The translations under genes were made by a program, and so were the position numbers. This document shows, piece after piece, positions 52,849 to 62,985 of a DNA stretch of 64,000 bases. Numbering within the stretch: the first letter of the stretch is position 1; each line of letters begins with the position of its first letter. Origin of the DNA: Hyphomicrobium sp. CS1GBMeth3 (GTDB lineage Bacteria > Pseudomonadota > Alphaproteobacteria > Rhizobiales > Hyphomicrobiaceae); assembly GCF_900117455.1 (NCBI RefSeq), contig NZ_FPHO01000002.1, positions 1,456,002 through 1,520,001 of the forward strand, written 5' to 3'. The notes beneath the pieces are model-generated. The model saw only the letters and a list, made by a program, of their open reading frames with translations. It was not told the DNA's origin and searched no databases.

Positions 52849-53414
52849 AACGTCCTCCCTTGGGTTTTAAGGAGGGAACACGGCGCTCCCACCTCAGCGT
52901 GATCAGTGGCAGTCACGTGCAGCGTAGGATGGTATTGGGGCCAAGTGCCCTCCCGCTCGCGACGACGCTTCAGGTCGTGCGCGTGCCACATGATCCGGCC
53001 GCCACGAGGGTCTCGCAGTGACGCGCAGGAACCTGGAATGGAAAGTTCGGAGACTAAGCTGGAGGGATGCTTGCGGTTGCCGCGGGGCGCACTGAGTTTG
53101 AACGCTTAAAAATCGCATCCTAGCCTCCAGCCAGGTGCGGCAACTCCCCATGGGCCGGCACCATACCAGACCGTCACAAAATAAAAACCCTCTGTGGTCT
53201 TTAGTCGGATAATTGGCTAACAGCACACTTCTACATTGCAGTCAAAAGGGACCCCGCAGCCTGGTCCCGGGGGGTTATAGATAGAACCACTGATCATTGA
53301 GAGCACCCGGTCCATACATTTGGGTCAAAATTCCCGTACGGCTCACGTCCGCCAAGTCGGCTCCACGGCCAAATCCCCCAATTGGGGGACTTCATAAAAG
53401 GTTGAAGGGAATTT
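52849..53414. other. 566-base interval with no gene seen
   Basis: Open frames are short and random in character. The last 150 bases are less GC-rich than the surroundings. A promoter for the DUF1254 gene should lie in the first 100 bases; nothing else can be supported. Confidence 0.45.
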
Positions 53415-53879
53415 TTAGTTTCGTCCCGGCGGTCCAATCAGTGCACGTCGCGCTTGGCGCGGCTGAAGGCGGAACCTAGGAGAAGGGAACACCATGATGG
53501 GTTGGTCGGTCACGTTGGTCCGCCTTTTCGGAACAGAAGTGCGGATCCACCTAACGTTTTTTCTGCTGCCAGCATGGTTTGCGGTCATGCCGTCCGTATG
53601 GTCGGCCATGTAGGAGCAGCTCTTGCAGCCCTCGTTCCAGCCCGGTGCCAGCATGAAATGCTGCACCAGAAGCTGGCTGCGGCCGGCGAACAGATCGGCC
53701 AGCGATATTTTTCCATCTGGCCCGTCGAATACGTAGGATTTCTCGACACGCACCCAGGGCAGCTTTCTCCGCAGATCAGCCACTTGGTCGCTACGGTGCG
53801 TCAGGTCCTTTTCCACGGCAAGCAGGTCACGCCGCGCTTCCAACCACTTGTCCCGTGATACGATCGCATGCGTCGTCAT
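53415..53879 (-). pseudogene. DUF899 thioredoxin-like protein, truncated
   Basis: The first 95 residues match DUF899 proteins: IVSRDKWLEARRDLLAVEKD, LRRKLPWVRVEKSYVFDGPD, LFAGRSQLLVQHFMLAPGWN, then EGCKSCSYMADHTDGM with the CxxC pair. After about 53590 the family pattern is lost and the frame runs antisense through an M50 protease fragment to a stop at 53415. Complete DUF899 proteins are about 230-260 residues, so the C-terminal half is missing. A short novel-ended product of 154 residues could still be made. ATG 53879 is divergent from the regulator gene at 54006. Confidence 0.7.
53494..53613 (+). pseudogene. N-terminal fragment of a site-2 (M50) metalloprotease
   Basis: ATG 53494, preceded by AGGAGAAGGG, opens MGWSVTLVRLFGTEVRIHLT, then FFLLPAWFAV. 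This is the start of Rip-type M50 proteases with CBS domains (GTxVRIHxTFxLLxAW). The pattern breaks near 53585 and a stop follows at 53611-53613. The HExxH site and later helices are absent. It abuts the truncated DUF899 gene head-on. Confidence 0.68.
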
Positions 53880-54005
53880 GATGGGTCTCCGTTTGTTGAC
53901 CGGGATTCACTGCCGCATTGGCCGTGATGTCCCTGGCGTTGATCGTGAGGTAGATATATTGGCCATCACGGACCCACTGGGAGTGACAAGTGTGTCGGGA
54001 TTTGA

Positions 54006-55226
54006 ATGGACTCGCTGATCACAGCAGGCGCCCGCGCGCTCGCATCGGGTGATGCGCTTGGCGCCCTGAACTACATCGCCCTGCGCGATGATCCGCCGGC
54101 GCTCGCACTGCGCGGCATTGCCATGGCCCAGCTTGGCGATCTTGCCAGAGCAAGGATGCTCCTGCGGCAGGCTGCCCGTGCCTTCGGCCCGAGAGAAGCC
54201 CTCGCCCGCGCACGGTGCGTCACTGCCGAAGCCGAGATTGCCCTCGTCTGCCGCGATCTCGGCTCACCCCTGAAACCGCTCGACAATGCCTTTCAGGTAC
54301 TTCGTCGCCATGAAGATCACGCCAACGCCGCGCATGCACGTTATTTGAAAGCCCGCTATCTGCTTCTAGTCGGACGACTGGATGAGGCTGAGCGCCTGCT
54401 CGCAGCATTTAATCCTGCGCCGCTGTCACCTGCATCACGAGCGTCTTTCGAACTCGTCAATGCCGGCATCGCCATGCGGCGGCTGCGCATCAAGGCGGCC
54501 CGTGCCGCCCTGGAGCGGGCGAGCGCGATTGCGCGTCAAACCGGCATCGCATCGCTCGCTGCCGAGGTCAAAAGCGCAGCCGAGAGTCTCGAAATTCCTG
54601 CTGCGCGGATGATCGCCCGCGGCAAGCAGAACACGGTCCGGCTCGAAGATGTCGAAACGCTGCTGGCATCAAAGGCGCTCGTCATCGATGCTTGCCGCCA
54701 TGTCATTGCTCAAGCTGGACAAGTGATCCCACTCGAGACCCGGCCTGTGCTCTTTGCTCTGGCGCGCAGCCTTGCCGAGGCTTCCCCCGGCGGCGCATCA
54801 CGGGCAACGCTTCTCTCCCGCGCATTCGGCGCGAAGCACGTGGATGAATCGCACCGCGTGCGGCTGCGCGTCGAGATCGGCAGGCTCCGGAAATTGCTCA
54901 GCACTATCGCCAGCATTGAAGCGACTAGCGACGGCTTTTCGCTATGCCCGCGTGGTGCGCGTGATCCCGTGGTGCTAGCCCCTCTGACGGGCGAAGCCAA
55001 CGCACATGTACTCGCACTTCTCGGAGATGGCGAGAGCTGGTCGAGCTCGGCGCTTGCATTGGCGCTCGGAGCAAGCCAGCGGACCGTGCAGCGCGCGCTG
55101 GATGAGCTTCTTGCAGCGGGAAAGGTGCAGGCGGTCGGCAAGGCGCGGGCGAGGCGCTGGATGGCGCCGCCCGTGCCCGGATTCCCGACAAGCTTGTTAC
55201 TCCCGACCGCGATGCCCAGCAGCTAG
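54006..55226 (+). CDS. TPR-like and winged-helix transcriptional regulator
   Basis: A protein of 406 residues. The first 200 are Ala/Leu-rich helical repeats of TPR type (ALRGIAMAQLGDLARARMLL and ARYLKARYLLLVGRLDEAER). Residues about 215-320 look like an OmpR-like winged helix (LLSRAFGAKHVDESHRVRLR then VEIGRLRKLLSTIASIE). A third, C-terminal HTH lies at about 335-390 (ALALALGASQRTVQRALDEL). It is divergent from the DUF899 fragment and 38 bases upstream of the propeller gene. It probably regulates one or both. Confidence 0.68.
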   Translation: MDSLITAGARALASGDALGALNYIALRDDPPALALRGIAMAQLGDLARARMLLRQAARAFGPREALARARCVTAEAEIALVCRDLGSPLKPLDNAFQVLRRHEDHANAAHARYLKARYLLLVGRLDEAERLLAAFNPAPLSPASRASFELVNAGIAMRRLRIKAARAALERASAIARQTGIASLAAEVKSAAESLEIPAARMIARGKQNTVRLEDVETLLASKALVIDACRHVIAQAGQVIPLETRPVLFALARSLAEASPGGASRATLLSRAFGAKHVDESHRVRLRVEIGRLRKLLSTIASIEATSDGFSLCPRGARDPVVLAPLTGEANAHVLALLGDGESWSSSALALALGASQRTVQRALDELLAAGKVQAVGKARARRWMAPPVPGFPTSLLLPTAMPSS

Positions 55227-55264
55227 GTTGTGAGCACGATGGATCTTGCGAAGGCAGGTGAACC

Positions 55265-55897
55265 ATGAAGCGCTCAACAGCGGAAATCGTGCGCGAATAC
55301 GGCCCGTTTCCCGATGTCGATCAGGTGGGTGGAGTGAGCTATGACGGCACCAATATCTGGATCGCAGCCGGAGACACGTTGAAGGCAGTCGATCCGGAGC
55401 GCGGCACGACAGTGAGGTCGCTCAATGTCCCGGCGCATGCCGGAACCGCATTTGATGGCAAATACCTGTTCCAGATTTCGGGCAACCGTATCCAGAAGGT
55501 CGATCCGGAGAGCGGCCGCGTCGTGTCATGCATCCCGACGCCCGACGGCGGCGCCTCGGGCATGGCCTGGGCCGAGGGTTCGCTCTGGGTCGGGCAGCAT
55601 CGCAACCGCAAGATCCATCAGGTCGATCCGGAGAGCGGGAAGATCCTCCGCACCATCGATTCGAACCGCTTCGTGACCGGCGTTACCTGGATTGACAAGG
55701 AGCTTTGGCACGGCACCTGGGAAGAAGAGAAAAGCGATCTTCGCCGGGTCGATCCGCAATCGGGCGAAGTGCTGGAGCTGATCGAGATGCCGCAAGGTGT
55801 TGGCGTATCGGGCCTTGAATCCAATGGCGGCGATCTCTTCTTCTGCGGCGGTGGCACCGGCGGAATGGTGAGAGCTGTGCGCAAACCCAAGCGTTAG
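55265..55897 (+). CDS. Beta-propeller protein (glutamine cyclotransferase/SMP-30-like)
   Basis: A protein of 210 residues built of repeats such as GVSYDGTNIWIAAGDTLKAV, MAWAEGSLWVGQHRNRKIHQ and VTWIDKELWHGTWEEEKSDL, each followed by VDPESG or VDPQSG. This is a small propeller of about five blades. There is no signal peptide, so it is cytoplasmic. It follows the regulator gene and is probably co-transcribed. In related genomes such proteins accompany DUF899 genes; the enzymatic role, if any, is unknown. Confidence 0.68.
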   Translation: MKRSTAEIVREYGPFPDVDQVGGVSYDGTNIWIAAGDTLKAVDPERGTTVRSLNVPAHAGTAFDGKYLFQISGNRIQKVDPESGRVVSCIPTPDGGASGMAWAEGSLWVGQHRNRKIHQVDPESGKILRTIDSNRFVTGVTWIDKELWHGTWEEEKSDLRRVDPQSGEVLELIEMPQGVGVSGLESNGGDLFFCGGGTGGMVRAVRKPKR

Positions 55898-55899
55898 TC

Positions 55900-56836
55900 C
55901 TAGGCCGTTCCGGCCGAATGAGCCATGCGGCACGAGGCATTCGCTGCAGCTCTGTACGGTTGACCTGAACCGGCTCCAGGACACATGTCCGAAGCTAGAG
56001 GACTTGCGGTCGTGTTCCGAGACATTCCTTTAGCTGATTGTTCATTAAGATCCGCAGCCGTCTGCCAGTTCTGGGATTGGTTCAGCAGTCGGCGGGATCG
56101 GATCGCTTCGCGCTTCCGGTCCATTTCAGCGCGACAACGCTCTTCTTGCCTAGCTCGTGCCTCGGCTTCGTGAACACAGATAAGGCGAAGTTCCTCGAAT
56201 ATTCCGGCGAGTCCCGCGACCGCTTCATCAAGCCTCTTCTCAAGCGGCGAATCCAGCGTCTCCCGCCACTCCTTCATCATGTGGTATCTGTCAGGGTTCT
56301 TGAACGTCAGGACCAATTCGCCGGTCGGTACTTTTTCCTGGGTCCATCTCTCACTCGTGGAGAGATGGACCCGGTCCGTTTTCTCTTTCTCGGTAAGTTT
56401 GCGTCGAACCTGTTGAATGCGCTCGGTCAGCTGCAGGTCGACCTTCTCATCGCCAAGCACGATCTGCACACCACGGCGATTGTATTGGTCAACGACGAGC
56501 TTGTATCCGCGCACCTCCAGTCAGAATGCGTATCCGGCGTTTGTCGAGATCGGTTGCATCAATCGCCTTGTACAGATTGCGGCGCCAGGGATCGTAGCGA
56601 CTCTCTCGTCGCTTCTCCCGGTCGTCCTGCAGCCAGGTCGCGACAATCCGGTGCGGACTTGATAGCGTTGCCGGAACGATGATGGGCTTGCCTGTCGTCA
56701 GCTCGTTTTCGATCGCTTCGCGCACACTGGTTGGGACAGGTGGCGGCTCCGGTGACGGAGGCCGCTTGCTCGGGGGATGTATGATGACGCGCGCTGGCGT
56801 ACCCGCCTTCAATGGTGGCAGGGGCTTCTTGGACAC
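55900..56836 (-). pseudogene. Frameshifted gene of unknown family
   Basis: The upstream half, possibly from GTG 56836 (VSKKPLPPLKAGTPARVIIH), reads IENELTTGKPIIVPATLSSP, ATWLQDDREKRRESRYDPWR and AIDATDLDKRRIRILT before stopping at 56489. The other half resumes in another frame near 56515 as LEVRGYKLVVDQYNRRGVQI, then TGELVLTFKNPDRYHMMKEW and a Glu/Arg-rich coiled coil. About 6-7 residues seem missing at the break, suggesting a small deletion. The family is not one I can name. It lies beside a tRNA 3' fragment, typical of island-borne genes. Confidence 0.6.
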
Positions 56837-56927
56837 ATCCTGCCAGCCTGTTGCTTTGCCCAATAGCCGCGTTCGGGAACCGGTCTGGGGTGCCTGAGAC
56901 ACGGGATGTGTAAGTCTCTGAGATAAA

Positions 56928-56955
56928 TGGTCGGAGCGGGAGGATTTGAACCTCC
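56928..56955 (-). tRNA. 3' end of a tRNA gene only (T arm, acceptor 3' strand, CCA)
   Basis: On the minus strand the T arm GGAGG-TTCAAAT-CCTCC is followed by CGCTCCG, discriminator A and CCA. The matching 5' acceptor strand CGGAGCG and a D arm are not found in the 100 bases upstream. It is therefore a fragment, as left at the far attachment site of an island that integrated into a tRNA gene elsewhere. A degenerate or unusual RNA gene is a less likely alternative. The rest of 56837-57353 has no gene. Confidence 0.5.
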
Positions 56956-57298
56956 GTCCCCCAGTCCCCCCGGGAAAGTTTCGCCGCTGTAACGCGTTAG
57001 ATGTTTGGCTCGCACCCTTACCGCGCGTGCGTTTGCAAACCGGGCCAGTCGCGCCTCCCTGCCGAAGCGCGGAGGCGTGGCAACAATGAAATGTTGCCTG
57101 CTCTTTGCTCTTCGCGCGAAGCAAACCATGCTTTGAAAGGTGCTTACGCGACCTGAGCGTATTGCCGCCGCGACACGTGTGGCAGCCACCTCCCCATGCT
57201 AAGTCCGCAGGGCGGCGCCTAAGTCATTGATATCCCCAGCCCGGACATTCTTCCCATCTCTGGCATGGTGGCTGCACCCAAGCTGCTGCCGACCTCAC

Positions 57299-57318
57299 GG
57301 CGATCCGCTCGGATCGCC
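57299..57318. promoter_or_regulatory. Perfect inverted repeat upstream of the PQQ dehydrogenase gene
   Basis: GGCGATCCG and CGGATCGCC (9-base arms, 2-base gap) end 35 bases before the start at 57354. No T-run follows on the plus strand, so it looks more like an operator than a terminator. Confidence 0.45.
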
Positions 57319-57353
57319 CAAAAATAGCATAGCAGTTAGGGAGCGACACTTAA

Positions 57354-59078
57354 ATGAAGGGCTGGAGAAATAGCCTCAAGGGCGCATTGCTGGCAAACGC
57401 AGCAATAAGCATTTGCACGTCACCTGCGGTTTCACTCGGCGTCTCGACGCTCGATGGCAAACACGTCGAGTACTACGTCACCGAGGACATGCTGTTGAAT
57501 GCGGACAAGGATCCGAACAACTGGCTTATGTATGGCCGCGACTACGAGAGCACGCGCTATTCGCCTCTCTCGCAGATCAACGCGGAGAATGTCGGCGATC
57601 TCGTCGCCAAATGGAACCTTTCGTTCGGCGTTCTCGGCGCGCAAGATTCCCAGATTACAGCTGTGAACGGCCGCCTTTACGTATCATCGAGCCAGAACCG
57701 CGTCTTCGCCATCGACGGCGTCTCCGGCAAGGTTCTCTGGCGCTATGATCGCAAGCTCCCTCCCGATCTTGGTCCGAAGCTCTGCTGCGGCGACGTAAAC
57801 CGCGGCGTGATCGCCTATGAGGATAAAGTAATTCTCGCGACGCTCGACACACACGTCGTTGCGCTCGACAACCACACCGGTGAGGTCGTTTGGGAAACGA
57901 AGCTCGGCGATTACAGGACCGGCGAGATCTTCACCTCCATGCCGGTCGTCGTCGACAACAAGATCCTGATTGGAAACTCGGGTGGCGATGTCGGCGCCAA
58001 CCCGGGCACGATTTACGCTCTAAATGGCGACGACGGAGAGGAAGCCTGGAAGACACACACCGTTCCCGTGACGGGAAAGGAGGAGATTGCAAATACGTGG
58101 GGCGGCGACTCCTGGAAGACGGCGGGTGGAACGCCGTGGCTCCCGGGGTCCTATGACAAAGAAACGGGTCTCTTGCTTTGGGGCGTGGGCAATCCGGTCC
58201 CGGACTTCGACGGCAGCGTTCGCCCCGGCGACAACCTGTATACGGGATCGACAATCGCAGTCGATGTGAAGTCCGGTGCGATCAAAGGCCACTTCCAATA
58301 CACCCCTCACGATGTGTGGGACTATGACGGAACCAACGAGGTCATCCTCATCACCGACAAGCAGAACCGCAAGGTGTGGCTCCACGCCGATCGGAACGGG
58401 CATCTCTACTCGATCGATCGGGAGACCTACAATTGCAACTGGGTCGCGGCAATGCAGCGGGTCAATTGGGTGAAGAGCTGGGGTGATAACTGCCGGCCGG
58501 AGGCCGATCCCAACAAGATCCCGACCTACGGCAAGGAGACCAAAGACATCGCGCCCGTTCTCGACGGTGGCAAGGAATGGGTGCCTGCCGCCTACAGCAA
58601 GAGAACCGGGTACATCTATGTTCCCGGTCGCGACATGTCCATGGACCTCGCCGCGAAGAAGCAGGAGTTCAAACCAGGTCAGTGGTTCTTGGGAACGGAC
58701 GTTTTGCGCCTCAATCCTGGCGGCGGATATGTGAAGGCATTCGACGGCACGACGGGTGAGCTGGTGTGGTCCCGCCGTCAGAATACACCCGCAACGGGCG
58801 GAATGCTGGCGACTGCCGGCGGCCTCGTCTTCAACGGCGATGCCGAAGGTGTCTTCCGCGCCATCAAGGACGATACGGGTGAGACGCTGTGGGAGTTCAA
58901 TGTGGGAACGGGCATCCACTCCAACCCCACGACCTTCATGGTGGGTGACACCCAGTACGTCGCCATCCTGGCGGGACCGGGCGGCGGCAGCATCTGGCCG
59001 CTAGTCTATGGCGAATGGCTCAAGACACGCCAGCTCGGCGGCAGCCTGTTCGTATTTGCAATCCACAAGGGCAAATAG
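57354..59078 (+). CDS. PQQ-dependent alcohol dehydrogenase with lanthanide-type Asp pair
   Basis: A protein of 574 residues, an eight-bladed quinoprotein of the methanol/ethanol family. The signal peptide runs to about residue 28 (LLANAAISICTSPAVSLG). It has the adjacent disulfide Cys144-Cys145 (KLCCGDVNRG), catalytic Asp323 and the extra Asp325 (VWDYDGTNEV) that in XoxF, ExaF and PedH binds a lanthanide. Asn280 (GVGN) is a further ligand. The metal Glu of GxGAExG is Asp212 here (NSGGDVGANPG), which is unusual. It oxidises a primary alcohol in the periplasm and passes electrons to cytochrome c, encoded 65 bases downstream. Whether it is a true XoxF or another alcohol dehydrogenase is open. 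Confidence 0.88.
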   Translation: MKGWRNSLKGALLANAAISICTSPAVSLGVSTLDGKHVEYYVTEDMLLNADKDPNNWLMYGRDYESTRYSPLSQINAENVGDLVAKWNLSFGVLGAQDSQITAVNGRLYVSSSQNRVFAIDGVSGKVLWRYDRKLPPDLGPKLCCGDVNRGVIAYEDKVILATLDTHVVALDNHTGEVVWETKLGDYRTGEIFTSMPVVVDNKILIGNSGGDVGANPGTIYALNGDDGEEAWKTHTVPVTGKEEIANTWGGDSWKTAGGTPWLPGSYDKETGLLLWGVGNPVPDFDGSVRPGDNLYTGSTIAVDVKSGAIKGHFQYTPHDVWDYDGTNEVILITDKQNRKVWLHADRNGHLYSIDRETYNCNWVAAMQRVNWVKSWGDNCRPEADPNKIPTYGKETKDIAPVLDGGKEWVPAAYSKRTGYIYVPGRDMSMDLAAKKQEFKPGQWFLGTDVLRLNPGGGYVKAFDGTTGELVWSRRQNTPATGGMLATAGGLVFNGDAEGVFRAIKDDTGETLWEFNVGTGIHSNPTTFMVGDTQYVAILAGPGGGSIWPLVYGEWLKTRQLGGSLFVFAIHKGK

Positions 59079-59142
59079 CCTCAAGCGGCACGTTGGCCTA
59101 TGCCGACGTGCCACTTCTCTCAGATCCAGGAGCCGCCGGAAG

Positions 59143-59535
59143 ATGAAACAATGGACGGCTGTGCTGTCGATGACGACGGCACTGCTACTTGCTGCAGGCG
59201 CAGCGCACACATTTGCTGACGACGCTGCGGAGAAGAAGAACCCGCTCGAAGGTCAAGCCGCGGCGATCGAGGCCGGCAAGACTCTCTATAGTAACACCTG
59301 TCTCTTCTGCCATGGCCCCAACGGCCTCGGCGCCCGCGCACCCAACCTCATCGAGGGCCTGTTCCGCCCCAACGGTGGAGCCGACGACACAATCGTGTTC
59401 GACATCATCCTCAACGGGCGGCCTGGCACCCTCATGGGCGGGTTCGAGGGGACCTATTCGGAAACGGAAATCTGGCAGGTCATCTCCTATCTTCGACAGG
59501 AGGGGATCGCGCGCGCCAAGCCGAAATCGAAATAG
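59143..59535 (+). CDS. Class I cytochrome c, probable electron acceptor of the dehydrogenase
   Basis: A protein of 130 residues with a signal peptide (VLSMTTALLLAAGAAHTFA). It has one haem c motif CLFCHGPNG and a probable Met axial ligand in GTLMGGFEG, and ends ETEIWQVISYLRQEGIARAK. ATG 59143 was chosen over a longer frame that overlaps the dehydrogenase region. Its place and size fit a XoxG-like or cytochrome cL-like partner, though it is shorter than typical cytochrome cL. Confidence 0.85.
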   Translation: MKQWTAVLSMTTALLLAAGAAHTFADDAAEKKNPLEGQAAAIEAGKTLYSNTCLFCHGPNGLGARAPNLIEGLFRPNGGADDTIVFDIILNGRPGTLMGGFEGTYSETEIWQVISYLRQEGIARAKPKSK

Positions 59536-59689
59536 CTTCCTGCTGTACGCGCTCAAGCTGTGTGCGGAGTAAAAGTCGCAGCTGCTGTGAAATTCGACAC
59601 AGACTCGACTTTGGAGGAATTGACCGACCACGGTGAGAATTGCTCCCGTGTGATGGCTGAGTCGGTGCGCGTCTTTCGACGGGTGAACA

Positions 59690-61153
59690 GTGAACAAGCC
59701 CTGCAACCTCACGATCGAAAAGCCGGTCATCGATAGCTCCAAAGGCACGGCGCCGGAAAGCTCGATTTCGACAGGCGGAATCATCCGGCGCTTCGCCTCG
59801 GAAGCGAGTGGAGTGGGTCACGGCATCGTGGACGTCGCCTGCAGCGTGGGCGAGCTTGCTGACCGGATGCAGAGGCAGGCCGGGCAGCTCTCGGAGATCC
59901 GAACCGAGATGCACGAGCTTGGCGCCGACAACGCGCGGATCGCCGACGGTGCCGCCTCCAGTCTCAGGATCGTCGAGGACGCGCGGACAGAGGTTGCGCA
60001 GTCTCTTGCAAAGCTCCGGGACTCCATCGACGGAGTGGACGCGCTCGTCGGTACCGTCTCGCAGCAACGCAACCTTCTCAGCGGCGTGCAGGAGGCCCTG
60101 GGCAAGGTGGGCAAGGTCGCGAACGGGATCAATGCAATCGCGAGTCAGACGAACCTGCTGGCGCTGAATGCCACTATTGAGGCCGCGCGCGCCGGAACAG
60201 CGGGAAAGGGTTTTGCGGTCGTTGCATCGGAGGTCAAGGCGCTCGCCGGACAAACCGCAGCGGCTACGCGCGAAATCGCGCTGACGATGAACGATCTGGC
60301 CCTCGAGGTGCAACAACTGATCGAACAAAGCCAGTGCAGCGCCGAGATCGCCGCTGCCGTGAGCACCAGCAACGCCCACCTTGCCGCTACGTTCGACGGT
60401 ATAGAAGCAACTGTCGTTGGCATTGCGGAGGAAACCTCGGGCATCACGACGCGCGTCGCTGCCATCGAAGAGCGCGGGCGAATGCTCGTGGACGGGATCG
60501 ACCGTCTCGCGAACGGGTTCGGAGAGTCGGCGCTCAACATCGCCCATATCGACAAGCGCCTCACGGTGCTGGAGCGTTCGGGCGAGAAGCTTCTAGCGAT
60601 TACCGTCGACTCCGGCATGCAGTCCACCGATACACCCTTTGTTCAGGAGGTGATGCGGCGCGCAGCCCTCGTATCCAAAAAGCTCGACGAGGCCGTCGCT
60701 AACGGCGCACTGACCTTGGACGATGTCTTCGATACGGACTACGTGCGTGTGCCCGGCACCAACCCGGAGCAATTCAATACCCGCTACGTCGATGCCTTCG
60801 ATCGCATCCTCCGCGACCTGCTTGAGGATGCCCAGTCCTTCAGCGATCGAGTCGTCTTCTGCGTCCCCATAGACAGGAACGGGTACATCCCGACGCACAA
60901 CAGCAAGTTCTCTCAACCCCAAGGCTCGGACCCGGTCTGGAACGCAGCCAACTGCCGCAATCGGCGGATCTTCAATGACCGAGTCGGCAAGGCGGCCGGA
61001 AGCAATCGCGATCCGTTCCTGGTTCAGACTTATCAGCGCGACATGGGGCAAGGTCGCAAAGTCCCGATGATGGACGTGTCGTCCCCCGTGCTCGTCGCTG
61101 GCCGTCATTGGGGCGGCCTAAGGCTTGCCTATGCCGCTGAGGGGCGCTCCTAG
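59690..61153 (+). CDS. Soluble methyl-accepting chemotaxis protein with a C-terminal sensor domain
   Basis: A protein of 487 residues without any transmembrane helix. The signalling hairpin tip lies at about residues 145-195 ([20 protein letters not shown], then [20 protein letters not shown]), flanked by coiled coils from about 45 to 300. Residues about 305-485 form a ligand-sensing-like domain with [40 protein letters not shown] and the end [13 protein letters not shown], resembling C-terminal domains of cytoplasmic or energy-taxis receptors. Cys410-like VVFCVP is notable. Its position beside the alcohol dehydrogenase suggests sensing of the metabolic state of alcohol oxidation. This is inference. 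Confidence 0.85.
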
Positions 61154-61209
61154 GACGCCTTATTCAAGAAGCTCGCGGCTTGCCCTATACACGGGGCAGC
61201 GCGACATTG

Positions 61210-62148
61210 TCACTTGCGCGCAGCGCGAAGGCGATCGAAATCTTCATCGGCATGATGCGACGAGCGGGTCAGCGGTGACGACGAGACTAGAAGGAACCCT
61301 TTCGCCAGTCCGACCCGGCGGTAGGCGTCGAACTCCTCGGGAGTCACATAGCGGACGAGCGGCGCGTGCTTGAGCGTCGGCTGGAGGTATTGGCCGATCG
61401 TCAGGAAATCGACGCCGGTGGACCTCAGGTCATCCATGACCTGATGAACCTCGTCTCGCTCTTCGCCGAGCCCCACCATGATGCCCGATTTCGTGAAAAC
61501 GTCGGGGTTTAATTCCTTTGCGATTTGCAGCAATCTAAGGGAATGGAAGTAGCGTGCGCCTGGACGGATCTTGAGGTAGAGCGATGGAACAGTCTCAAGG
61601 TTGTGATTGAATACGTCGGGCTGGGCAGACATCACCGCCTCGATCGCACCACTCTTGCGCAGAAAATCCGGCGTCAGCACCTCGATCGTAGCGCCCGGTG
61701 CGCGAGCGCGTACAGCCTCGATCGTTTTTGCAAAATGTTCCGCGCCTCCATCCGCGAGATCGTCGCGATCCACGGATGTGATGACGACGTGCCTGAGACC
61801 CAGCTTGGCGACAGCCGACGCGACCTCCTCCGGCTCATGATCGTTCAATGGCCGCGGAATTCCCGTCCTGACGTTGCAGAAGGCGCACGCGCGCGTGCAC
61901 GTATCGCCCATGATCATCAGCGTAGCGTGCCGCTTCGACCAGCACTCGCCGAGATTGGGACATGCGGCTTCCTCACAGACCGTCTTGAGCCTGTGTTCGC
62001 GCACGATGGAGAGCGTCTGGTTCAGCTCAAGGACGGATGAGAGCGTGACGCGAATCCAGTCCGGACGCGGCGGAGGGGGCGAATCCGGCCGCTTCACTTT
62101 CTCGGGATGTCGAGGCCGATTCTTGAGCGTATCTATGAGGGTGACCAT
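61210..62148 (-). CDS. lipA: Lipoyl synthase
   Basis: A radical SAM enzyme of 312 residues with the auxiliary cluster Cys motif [12 protein letters not shown] and the radical SAM motif CTRACAFC. It has [39 protein letters not shown] and the C-terminal [10 protein letters not shown] with the Ser ligand. It inserts two sulfurs into protein-bound octanoate. It lies 57 bases after thiG on the same strand, so it may share the thi transcript. lipB is not present. Confidence 0.95.
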
Positions 62149-62205
62149 AGGAACCTGGAAGGGTCTAAGTTGAATTGGCTGCGATGATCGACGCCCGAAC
62201 TCCCA

Positions 62206-62985
62206 TCATTGACCTGCCAGAAGCGGCCTACCCACGATCGGGCTCGATGGGTGGGCCATGTCACGTGGCTCGAGCGCGCCGGAGAGAAAGGCAAGTCGCC
62301 CTGCCTCGACTGCCTTCGAGAAGGCCAGCGCCATCTGCGGTGGATCGACCGCTTTGGCCACGGCGGTATTCAGCAGAATGCCATCGCATCCGAGTTCCAT
62401 GGCCTGCGAGGCATGGCTGGGAACACCGAGCCCGGCGTCCACGATGATCGGGATGTCCGGAAAGTGCGCGCGAAGGGTCCGCAATCCGTAGGCGTTGTTG
62501 AGGCCCCGCGCGGAGCCGATCGGCGCACCCCAGGGCATGAGAACCCGGCAGCCCGCGCTGAGCAACCTCTCCGCAACCACCAGATCTTCGGTCGTGTAGG
62601 GAAAGACCTGAAACCCTTCCTCGTTGAGGATGCGCGCGGCTTCTACGAGGCCGAAGACATCTGGCTGCAGCGTGTCCTGCTCGCCGATGACCTCGAGCTT
62701 GATCCAGATGGTGTTGAAGATCTCGCGCGCCATGTGGGCGGTCGTGACAGCTTCCTTCACCGTCTGGCAGCCGGCCGTGTTCGGCAAAATAGGCAGCCGC
62801 AGCTCCAGCAATTGGTCCCAGAAGCGGCGCGACGTCTGAGCCTTACCAACGGACTCGCGCCGGATCGACGCTGTCACGGCGCCCGCCTTCCCGACTCGGA
62901 TCGACTGAGCCATGACCGAGGGAGACGGATAGAGAGCAGTACCGAGCAACAGGCGGGACGCGAGTTCTTGTCCGTAAACAATCAC
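62206..62985 (-). CDS. thiG: Thiazole synthase ThiG
   Basis: A protein of 259 residues starting at GTG 62985 ([20 protein letters not shown]), preceded by GGAGGG and 4 bases after the thiS stop; longer frames run antisense to sense through thiS and are not used. The catalytic Lys is in [17 protein letters not shown]. Phosphate-binding segments include [20 protein letters not shown] and [20 protein letters not shown]. It forms the thiazole of thiamine from DXP, ThiS thiocarboxylate and dehydroglycine. Confidence 0.94.

Follow-up and report, generated by a model that had tools for sequence, protein, structure and literature searches.

Whether the replacement of a metal-binding glutamate by an aspartate changes the choice of metal ion in a PQQ-dependent alcohol dehydrogenase is the question raised by a gene at 57354..59078 on the forward strand of the window, which is the whole stretch of 64,000 nucleotides of Hyphomicrobium sp. 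CS1GBMeth3 DNA that was analysed. This gene encodes a PQQ-dependent dehydrogenase of the methanol/ethanol family, 574 residues long, with an N-terminal signal-like segment. According to sections of a 2024 review, the metal-site residues of the rare-earth alcohol dehydrogenases are conserved, and the basis of metal preference is sought in the pocket size, the hydrogen bonding and the surrounding structure (PMC11845868). When compared with this reviewed conservation, a direct ligand that is changed, and is fixed as such in a clade, is unexpected.

Active site of the 574-residue enzyme

The identification as a PQQ alcohol dehydrogenase in the earlier note is confirmed by the match with the TIGR03075 model (526.9 bits, cut-off 480.05), and the sequence also qualifies as an eight-bladed PQQ propeller fold; two pqqE genes score above cut-off in the same genome. 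Two sets of rows are used for the comparisons of the active site. In the protein search, 7997 candidates were scored, giving 3898 relatives, and the best 120 of these 3898 were aligned with the query (the best-120 alignment, 121 rows with the query); the tree set consists of 77 hand-chosen rows. The features described below are all on the forward strand.

The two cysteines of the vicinal disulfide pair above PQQ, Cys144-Cys145 (57783..57788), are both present in 121/121 rows of the best-120 alignment, and in the phmmer comparison they are aligned with the CC pair of the PDB relatives. Asp98 (57645..57647; Asp in 106/121 rows of the best-120 alignment) shares its alignment column with Glu55 of XoxF, which we take to be a PQQ contact. 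This is another departure from XoxF, where a glutamate is found, and in the tree set the column is Glu or Gln in 27/28 rows outside the superclade. Asn280 (58191..58193), a metal ligand by homology, is invariant (121/121 rows of the best-120 alignment) and is aligned with the asparagine of XoxF 4mae. The motif Asp323-Tyr-Asp325 (58320..58328), in which Asp323 is presumably the catalytic base and Asp325 is the lanthanide-type aspartate, has Asp323 in 121/121 and Asp325 in 116/121 of the best-120 rows. Both aspartates match Asp299 and Asp301 of XoxF 4mae, so that the lanthanide-type pair described in the earlier note is indeed present. In the table of the review, the ligands of 4mae corresponding to these residues are Asn256 and the pair Asp299/Asp301 (PMC11845868).

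An extra cysteine pair, Cys361 and Cys380 (58434..58493), surrounds Asn371-Trp372 and is complete in 121/121 rows of the best-120 alignment. In the tree set each of these cysteines is found in 34/34 rows of the Asp clade (defined below) and in 13/15 Glu-bearing neighbour rows, and in 28/28 other family rows there is a cysteine at neither position. It is possible that these residues form a second disulfide bridge beside the PQQ site, common to the close homologues with Asp and with Glu.

The enzyme is also shorter than usual, as noted earlier: its core (residue 45 to 572) has 527 residues, as compared with medians of 552 and 583 in three ExaF/PedH-type and three Xox rows, respectively. A large part of this difference is found in the segment of residues 232-249 (58047..58100), which has 17 residues here and medians of 32-34 in the ExaF/PedH-type and Xox rows. 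The nearest Glu-bearing group is equally short (median core 526, 15 rows), so the shortness is not tied to the aspartate.

Occurrence of Asp212 and its loop

Asp212 (57987..57989) is part of a GGDVG motif, which in the phmmer alignment is opposite to GGEFG of PedH (6zcv, 6zcw) and of XoxF (4mae, 6dam); a glutamate is present in this column in PedH, XoxF and 1flg. As listed in the table of the review, this glutamate binds the metal ion, being Glu172 in 4MAE and 6FKW, Glu197 in 6DAM and Glu199 in PedH 6ZCW, and the metal-binding residues are Glu, Asn, Asp and Asp in XoxF and PedH, and Glu and Asn in MxaF (PMC11845868). The proposal of the earlier note that Asp212 takes the place of the metal glutamate is thus in agreement with these alignments. 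The usual glutamate was also looked for elsewhere, as its presence would argue against a replacement, and there is none in residues 205-219 (LIGNSGGDVGANPGT). The spacing from Thr194 to this column has a median of 18 residues in all groups compared, apart from the single putative Mdh2 row (24). With a loop without glutamate and an unchanged spacing, the metal glutamate has not been displaced.

The aspartate is accompanied by a changed loop. In the best-120 alignment the metal column is Asp in 67 rows, including the 574-residue enzyme, and Glu in 54. The loop 213-218 (VGANPG; 57990..58007) has an inserted residue, 217, and an asparagine, Asn216, in 67/67 Asp rows (GGDVGANPG), and it has an arginine and no extra residue in 54/54 Glu rows. 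An alignment slip is ruled out, as there is no nearby glutamate, the spacing is constant and the insertion is bounded by Gly214 and Gly218, which are invariant in these 121 rows. The larger set of 223 rows, which is the 121 rows and 102 further frames from 82 loci, has 113 rows with Asp and the insertion, 12 with Asp and no insertion, 84 with Glu and no insertion, one with Glu and a loop insertion, three with Lys or Gln and 10 with a gap at the site. The one Glu row with an insertion (L007) is the same gene as L092, and its extra residue shifts to another column upon realignment; Asn216 is replaced by threonine in 1/113 rows with Asp and the insertion. The recurrence of the aspartate and the identical insertion in 67/121 and 113/223 rows rules out a sequencing error. 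All 12 Asp rows without the insertion belong to groups other than the Asp clade, showing that the insertion is not always required; within the Asp clade, the joint appearance of Asp and insertion counts as one evolutionary event.

Homology of Asp212 with a known aspartate of XoxF1 is likewise ruled out. In XoxF1 the aspartate precedes the glutamate rather than replacing it, and this arrangement is described as diagnostic for XoxF1 in part of the relevant article (PMC8546591). Two XoxF-like paralogues of the own genome (L093, L094) have GGDEF, with both Asp and Glu, in adjacent columns. When considering all 13 enzymes of this genome, the metal column is Glu in 10, Asp in two (the 574-residue enzyme and L086) and Arg in one (L095, with a long-insertion loop).

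When searching with the Asp-clade alignment, matches are found in 6/103 genomes of the family (E 1e-150; Asp and the insertion in 9/9 loci), in 4/397 sampled genomes of the order (E 1e-200; the two new loci also having Asp and DYD) and in 1/398 sampled genomes of the phylum (E 1e-200), which is the own genome. The hosts of the Asp clade include Hyphomicrobium, Rhodomicrobium, Neptuniibacter, Methyloversatilis, Zoogloea, Methylibium and Azohydromonas. The clade is apparently uncharacterised: among the titles and opening parts of abstracts listed for the open-access PMC literature, none mentions it, or a natural Asp at the metal Glu, and it may be numbered in Keltjens 2014 or Good 2020.

The tree was calculated from 503 columns of the 77 rows, leaving out the metal-loop, DYD and position-98 columns, by a quick search without bootstraps, in which the long branch of the THG group is attached to a second long branch; the XoxF5, MxaF and PedH-type rows were named by their best PDB match (L089, L091 and L085, respectively). 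In this tree the 34 rows with Asp and the insertion form one clade (SH-aLRT 99), located amid Glu rows and separate from the XoxF, MxaF, ExaF/PedH and putative Mdh2 rows, and the larger group of this clade and its Glu-bearing relatives has an SH-aLRT of 99-100 for the chosen rows. The residues Arg150, Thr194, Trp262, Asn280, Asp323, Arg347 and Asn371 are kept in 34/34 of its rows. Clearly, Asp212 characterises an entire clade, where it is fixed, and is not a one-off, and the Asp clade is a well-supported sequence variant; as it is nested among Glu rows, Glu is likely the ancestral state there. The Glu neighbour rows serve as a comparison group in the 77-row tree, being not an established clade.

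The view of the earlier note that Glu is present in nearly all family members agrees with the structures of the review table, but the 77-row tree requires at least three changes between Asp and Glu at the metal column, and Asp has arisen repeatedly there within the family. Constraining the 43 Asp rows to a single origin is rejected by the AU test (p-AU 4.0e-5), as is one group of the 25 DYD rows of the Asp clade (p-AU 8.4e-6), both tests being weakened by the choice of these groups once the tree was known.

The nine rows with Ser325 form one subclade inside the Asp clade (SH-aLRT 99), having the D-x-S motif of the calcium ethanol dehydrogenase ExaA/PedE (1flg); 1flg differs by its retained Glu, and the 574-residue enzyme has D-x-D. 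In the ExaA/PedE type, the residue equivalent to 325 is Ser or Thr according to the review (PMC11845868), and a D-x-A/D-x-D motif is used for sorting enzymes in passages of another article (PMC11996626). As the Ser state is derived inside the Asp clade, the change of Glu into Asp and the switch of the motif at 325 are separate events. Asp212 is older than the choice at 325 and is not its determinant, and with Ser325 members nested in the clade it does not decide between lanthanide and calcium. The phylogeny proposed as a check in the earlier note establishes Asp as a clade trait, but it does not sustain the idea that Asp marks a different ion, since DYD and derived DYS enzymes both occur in the clade. 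Copies of both types are found together in at least four genomes. Three genomes of the same genus (G066, G067 and G068) have one DYD and one DYS member each, the DYS copy of G066 being cut by a contig end, and in Methyloversatilis universalis EHg5 the order is DYD gene, solute-binding gene, cytochrome c, DYS gene, cytochrome c; the own genome has the DYD form only.

As Asp is fixed across the whole branch, the clade can be used for testing metal choice. It provides a natural experiment, in which the length of the ligand can be separated from the effect of the extra Asp by means of the Glu relatives and the DYD/DYS pairs of single genomes, and which has a bearing on the tuning of proteins for rare-earth separation.

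The nearest of these Glu relatives (for example P0065, P0093 and loci of marine Alphaproteobacteria), which are uncharacterised, are 55-62% identical to the 574-residue enzyme among the matches listed. They have the same core length, DYD and, in most, Cys361/Cys380, as well as a CxxCH frame downstream in 18/20 of the hits for which the sequence extends more than 1 kb beyond the gene. They differ in the AEYGVR-G loop, with Glu and no insertion, and in the absence of Ser325 (0/54 rows of the best-120 alignment). XoxF (4mae, 6fkw, 6dam, 6oc5, 7o6z) is more distant, with 32-37% identity in the structural alignment; its Asn and Asp-x-Asp ligands and its partner cytochrome c are shared, whereas its Glu is kept and the Xox rows are on a separate branch. 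The lanthanide-dependent ethanol dehydrogenase PedH/ExaF (6zcv, 6zcw) has Glu199, as given in the review table (PMC11845868), and no loop insertion in the phmmer alignment, and the PedH-type rows form a separate clade with a longer 232-249 segment and without Cys361/Cys380.

Metal binding and alternative explanations

From these sequence comparisons, the most probable reading (with a probability of roughly 0.7) is that of a working periplasmic PQQ alcohol/aldehyde dehydrogenase that is lanthanide-type (DYD), belonging to a clade that has swapped Glu for Asp together with an insertion and an Arg-to-Asn change. In this family the alcohol is oxidised by PQQ, which is polarised by the ion, with the first Asp acting as base and the electrons going to a cytochrome c. 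In the 574-residue enzyme, PQQ and the metal ion would be seated in the eight-bladed propeller, the metal would be held by Asp212, Asn280, Asp323 and Asp325, the substrate proton would be taken by Asp323 and the electrons would be passed to the cytochrome c of the adjacent gene. Given Asp325, a light lanthanide is the most likely ion. We infer that Asp212 still binds the metal, aided by the insertion. A shorter arm needs a closer backbone, and the co-changed loop offers the means for such compensation: the insertion probably brings the backbone inward, such that the shorter Asp would reach the ion with the same carboxylate charge. The metal identity, the ligand geometry, the substrate and the activity of this enzyme are predictions.

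It is unlikely that the Asp ligand shifts the metal selectivity, with larger early lanthanides or another ion preferred when compared with XoxF and PedH, as envisaged in the earlier note. The substituted residue is a direct ligand in the characterised enzymes and Asp is fixed in the clade rows examined, as such a shift would have it, but the same Asp is retained in the calcium-looking DYS members, and the insertion may compensate for its length. Moreover, the loop at the metal Glu is rearranged in XoxF1 (Asp172) with almost identical coordination, as stated in part of that article (PMC8546591). A loop in which Asn216 always goes with Asp (67/67) and Arg always with Glu (54/54) in the best-120 alignment may have been remodelled in one piece, and this pattern also fits with a site to which Asp212 contributes no ligand and in which the shell is filled by the Asn216 side of the inserted loop, by water or by PQQ alone. 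The AlphaFold2 model, where the loop is uncertain, leaves room for such a site: the mean pLDDT is low (65) for residues 211-220, and with a value of 63 in the Glu relative P0065 the comparison of the two loops, being equally uncertain, is uninformative. We regard a non-ligand Asp212 as distinctly improbable, because the presence of Asp in 67/67 insertion rows of this alignment is what a retained ligand would predict. The further possibility of a rebuilt first shell, consisting of Asp212 and the Asn-loop, with a new coordination number, a distinct lanthanide selectivity, a later calcium-type (DYS) partner of its own and hence a further, independent lanthanide/calcium enzyme pair on a scaffold without the Glu, is put forward tentatively and is unlikely.

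Two other proposals concern the identity of the protein. TIGR04528, the model of the acido-empty-quinoprotein group, is the second-best NCBIfam match, which could suggest a degenerate, PQQ-free member; however, its 331.8 bits are far below the cut-off of 650, the cofactor and catalytic columns are conserved clade-wide and the cytochrome partner is retained, making this highly improbable. Identity with Mdh2, the PQQ methanol/ethanol dehydrogenase of methylotrophic Burkholderiales and Rhodocyclales, is suggested by the presence of Asp-clade members in Methyloversatilis and Methylibium. In M. universalis FAM5, XoxF3 and Mdh2 are three gene numbers apart, XoxJ3, XoxG3 and an aldehyde oxidoreductase are near, and the genes after Mdh2 encode a solute-binding protein and a cytochrome (PMC5023235). 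The Asp-clade cassette of EHg5 has this same succession of dehydrogenase, solute-binding protein and cytochrome. However, the FAM5-like arrangement of EHg5 is at another locus (L119), 1.7 Mb from the Asp pair, in whose 6 kb upstream there is no second dehydrogenase. At L119, the order is an AFOR_N aldehyde oxidoreductase, a solute-binding gene, L109, two genes, L113, one gene and a cytochrome, where L109 is an ExaF-like DYD enzyme and L113 an ExaA-like D-F-S enzyme, both having Glu. L113, which is taken as Mdh2 by gene order alone and with one mismatch to FAM5 (the following gene encodes a pentapeptide-repeat protein, not a solute-binding protein), is on a different branch of the 77-row tree, grouping with the PedH-type rows outside the Asp clade. 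The 574-residue enzyme is thus probably not Mdh2, an identity that we consider very improbable. Mdh2 itself is called NAD-dependent in a passage of one article (PMC13300288) and is treated as PQQ-dependent in passages of others, such as PMC5023235.

Gene neighbourhood and other variant enzymes

The gene of the 574-residue enzyme is followed, after 64 nucleotides, by a gene for a c-type cytochrome (59143..59535, forward strand; PF13442 and PF00034), with a CLFCH motif at 59299-59313, which is the likely electron acceptor. By raw count, a CxxCH frame starts within 1.2 kb downstream in 42/46 hits of the Asp clade; of the four hits lacking one, L017 and L064 run into the end of a contig, whereas L029 and L049 have downstream sequence without such a frame. 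The gene lists of the inspected loci were made by a simple codon-position heuristic. Among the eight loci inspected, a gene for a solute-binding protein directly follows the dehydrogenase in L019, L020, L031 and L051, the last being a Glu relative, and there is none in this position in the window, L010, L042 and L046. The Pfam model SBP_bac_3 scores above cut-off for L019, L020 and L031 and slightly below for L051, and the matches of L019 and L051 to MoxJ-type NCBIfam models are far below the cut-offs of these models. The gene order of the xox system is xoxF-J-G. The dehydrogenase/solute-binding/cytochrome arrangement resembles it by analogy, with a MoxJ-like solute-binding gene in some relatives of the 574-residue enzyme.

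A second group of PQQ dehydrogenases, THGLQATP-like, also has Asp at the metal column (GGDQP), with no insertion, without the vicinal Cys pair and mostly with DFD or DYD; its member in the own genome is L086 (G000:C3:2490973-2492538). In 12/45 loci a gene of this group is no more than about 6 kb away from the Asp-clade gene (L020, L023, L025, L026, L027, L032, L033, L035, L037, L042, L044 and L050), at least two of the 12 being partial; the neighbour in L043 appears to belong to another, glucose-dehydrogenase-like group and is outside this count. A third Asp group, from Acidobacteriota (L075, L076), has GGDYPSR or GGDFPSR, without insertion and with DYD retained. In L095/L096 of the own genome (C3:1620060-1621742) and in L116 of M. 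universalis EHg5, 23 extra alignment columns of the metal loop are filled, the metal column is Arg or Lys and WGYDVASPP replaces WDYDG; these are possibly metal-free members.

A scan of 53000-62500 of the window with Rfam gives zero matches. A tRNA-Pro(GGG)-like 3' end occurs twice, at 56928-56955 on the reverse strand of the window, about 400 bases upstream of the dehydrogenase gene, and at G000:C3:2481477-2481504 on the forward strand, at a distance of about 1.25 kb from L085, the PedH-type gene. ARAGORN finds an intact tRNA at neither of these loci, but does find one at L126, a third site that is nearly identical. Over a 77-base stretch the two loci are 93.5% alike, and it is possible that the two 3' ends are scars of integrative elements.
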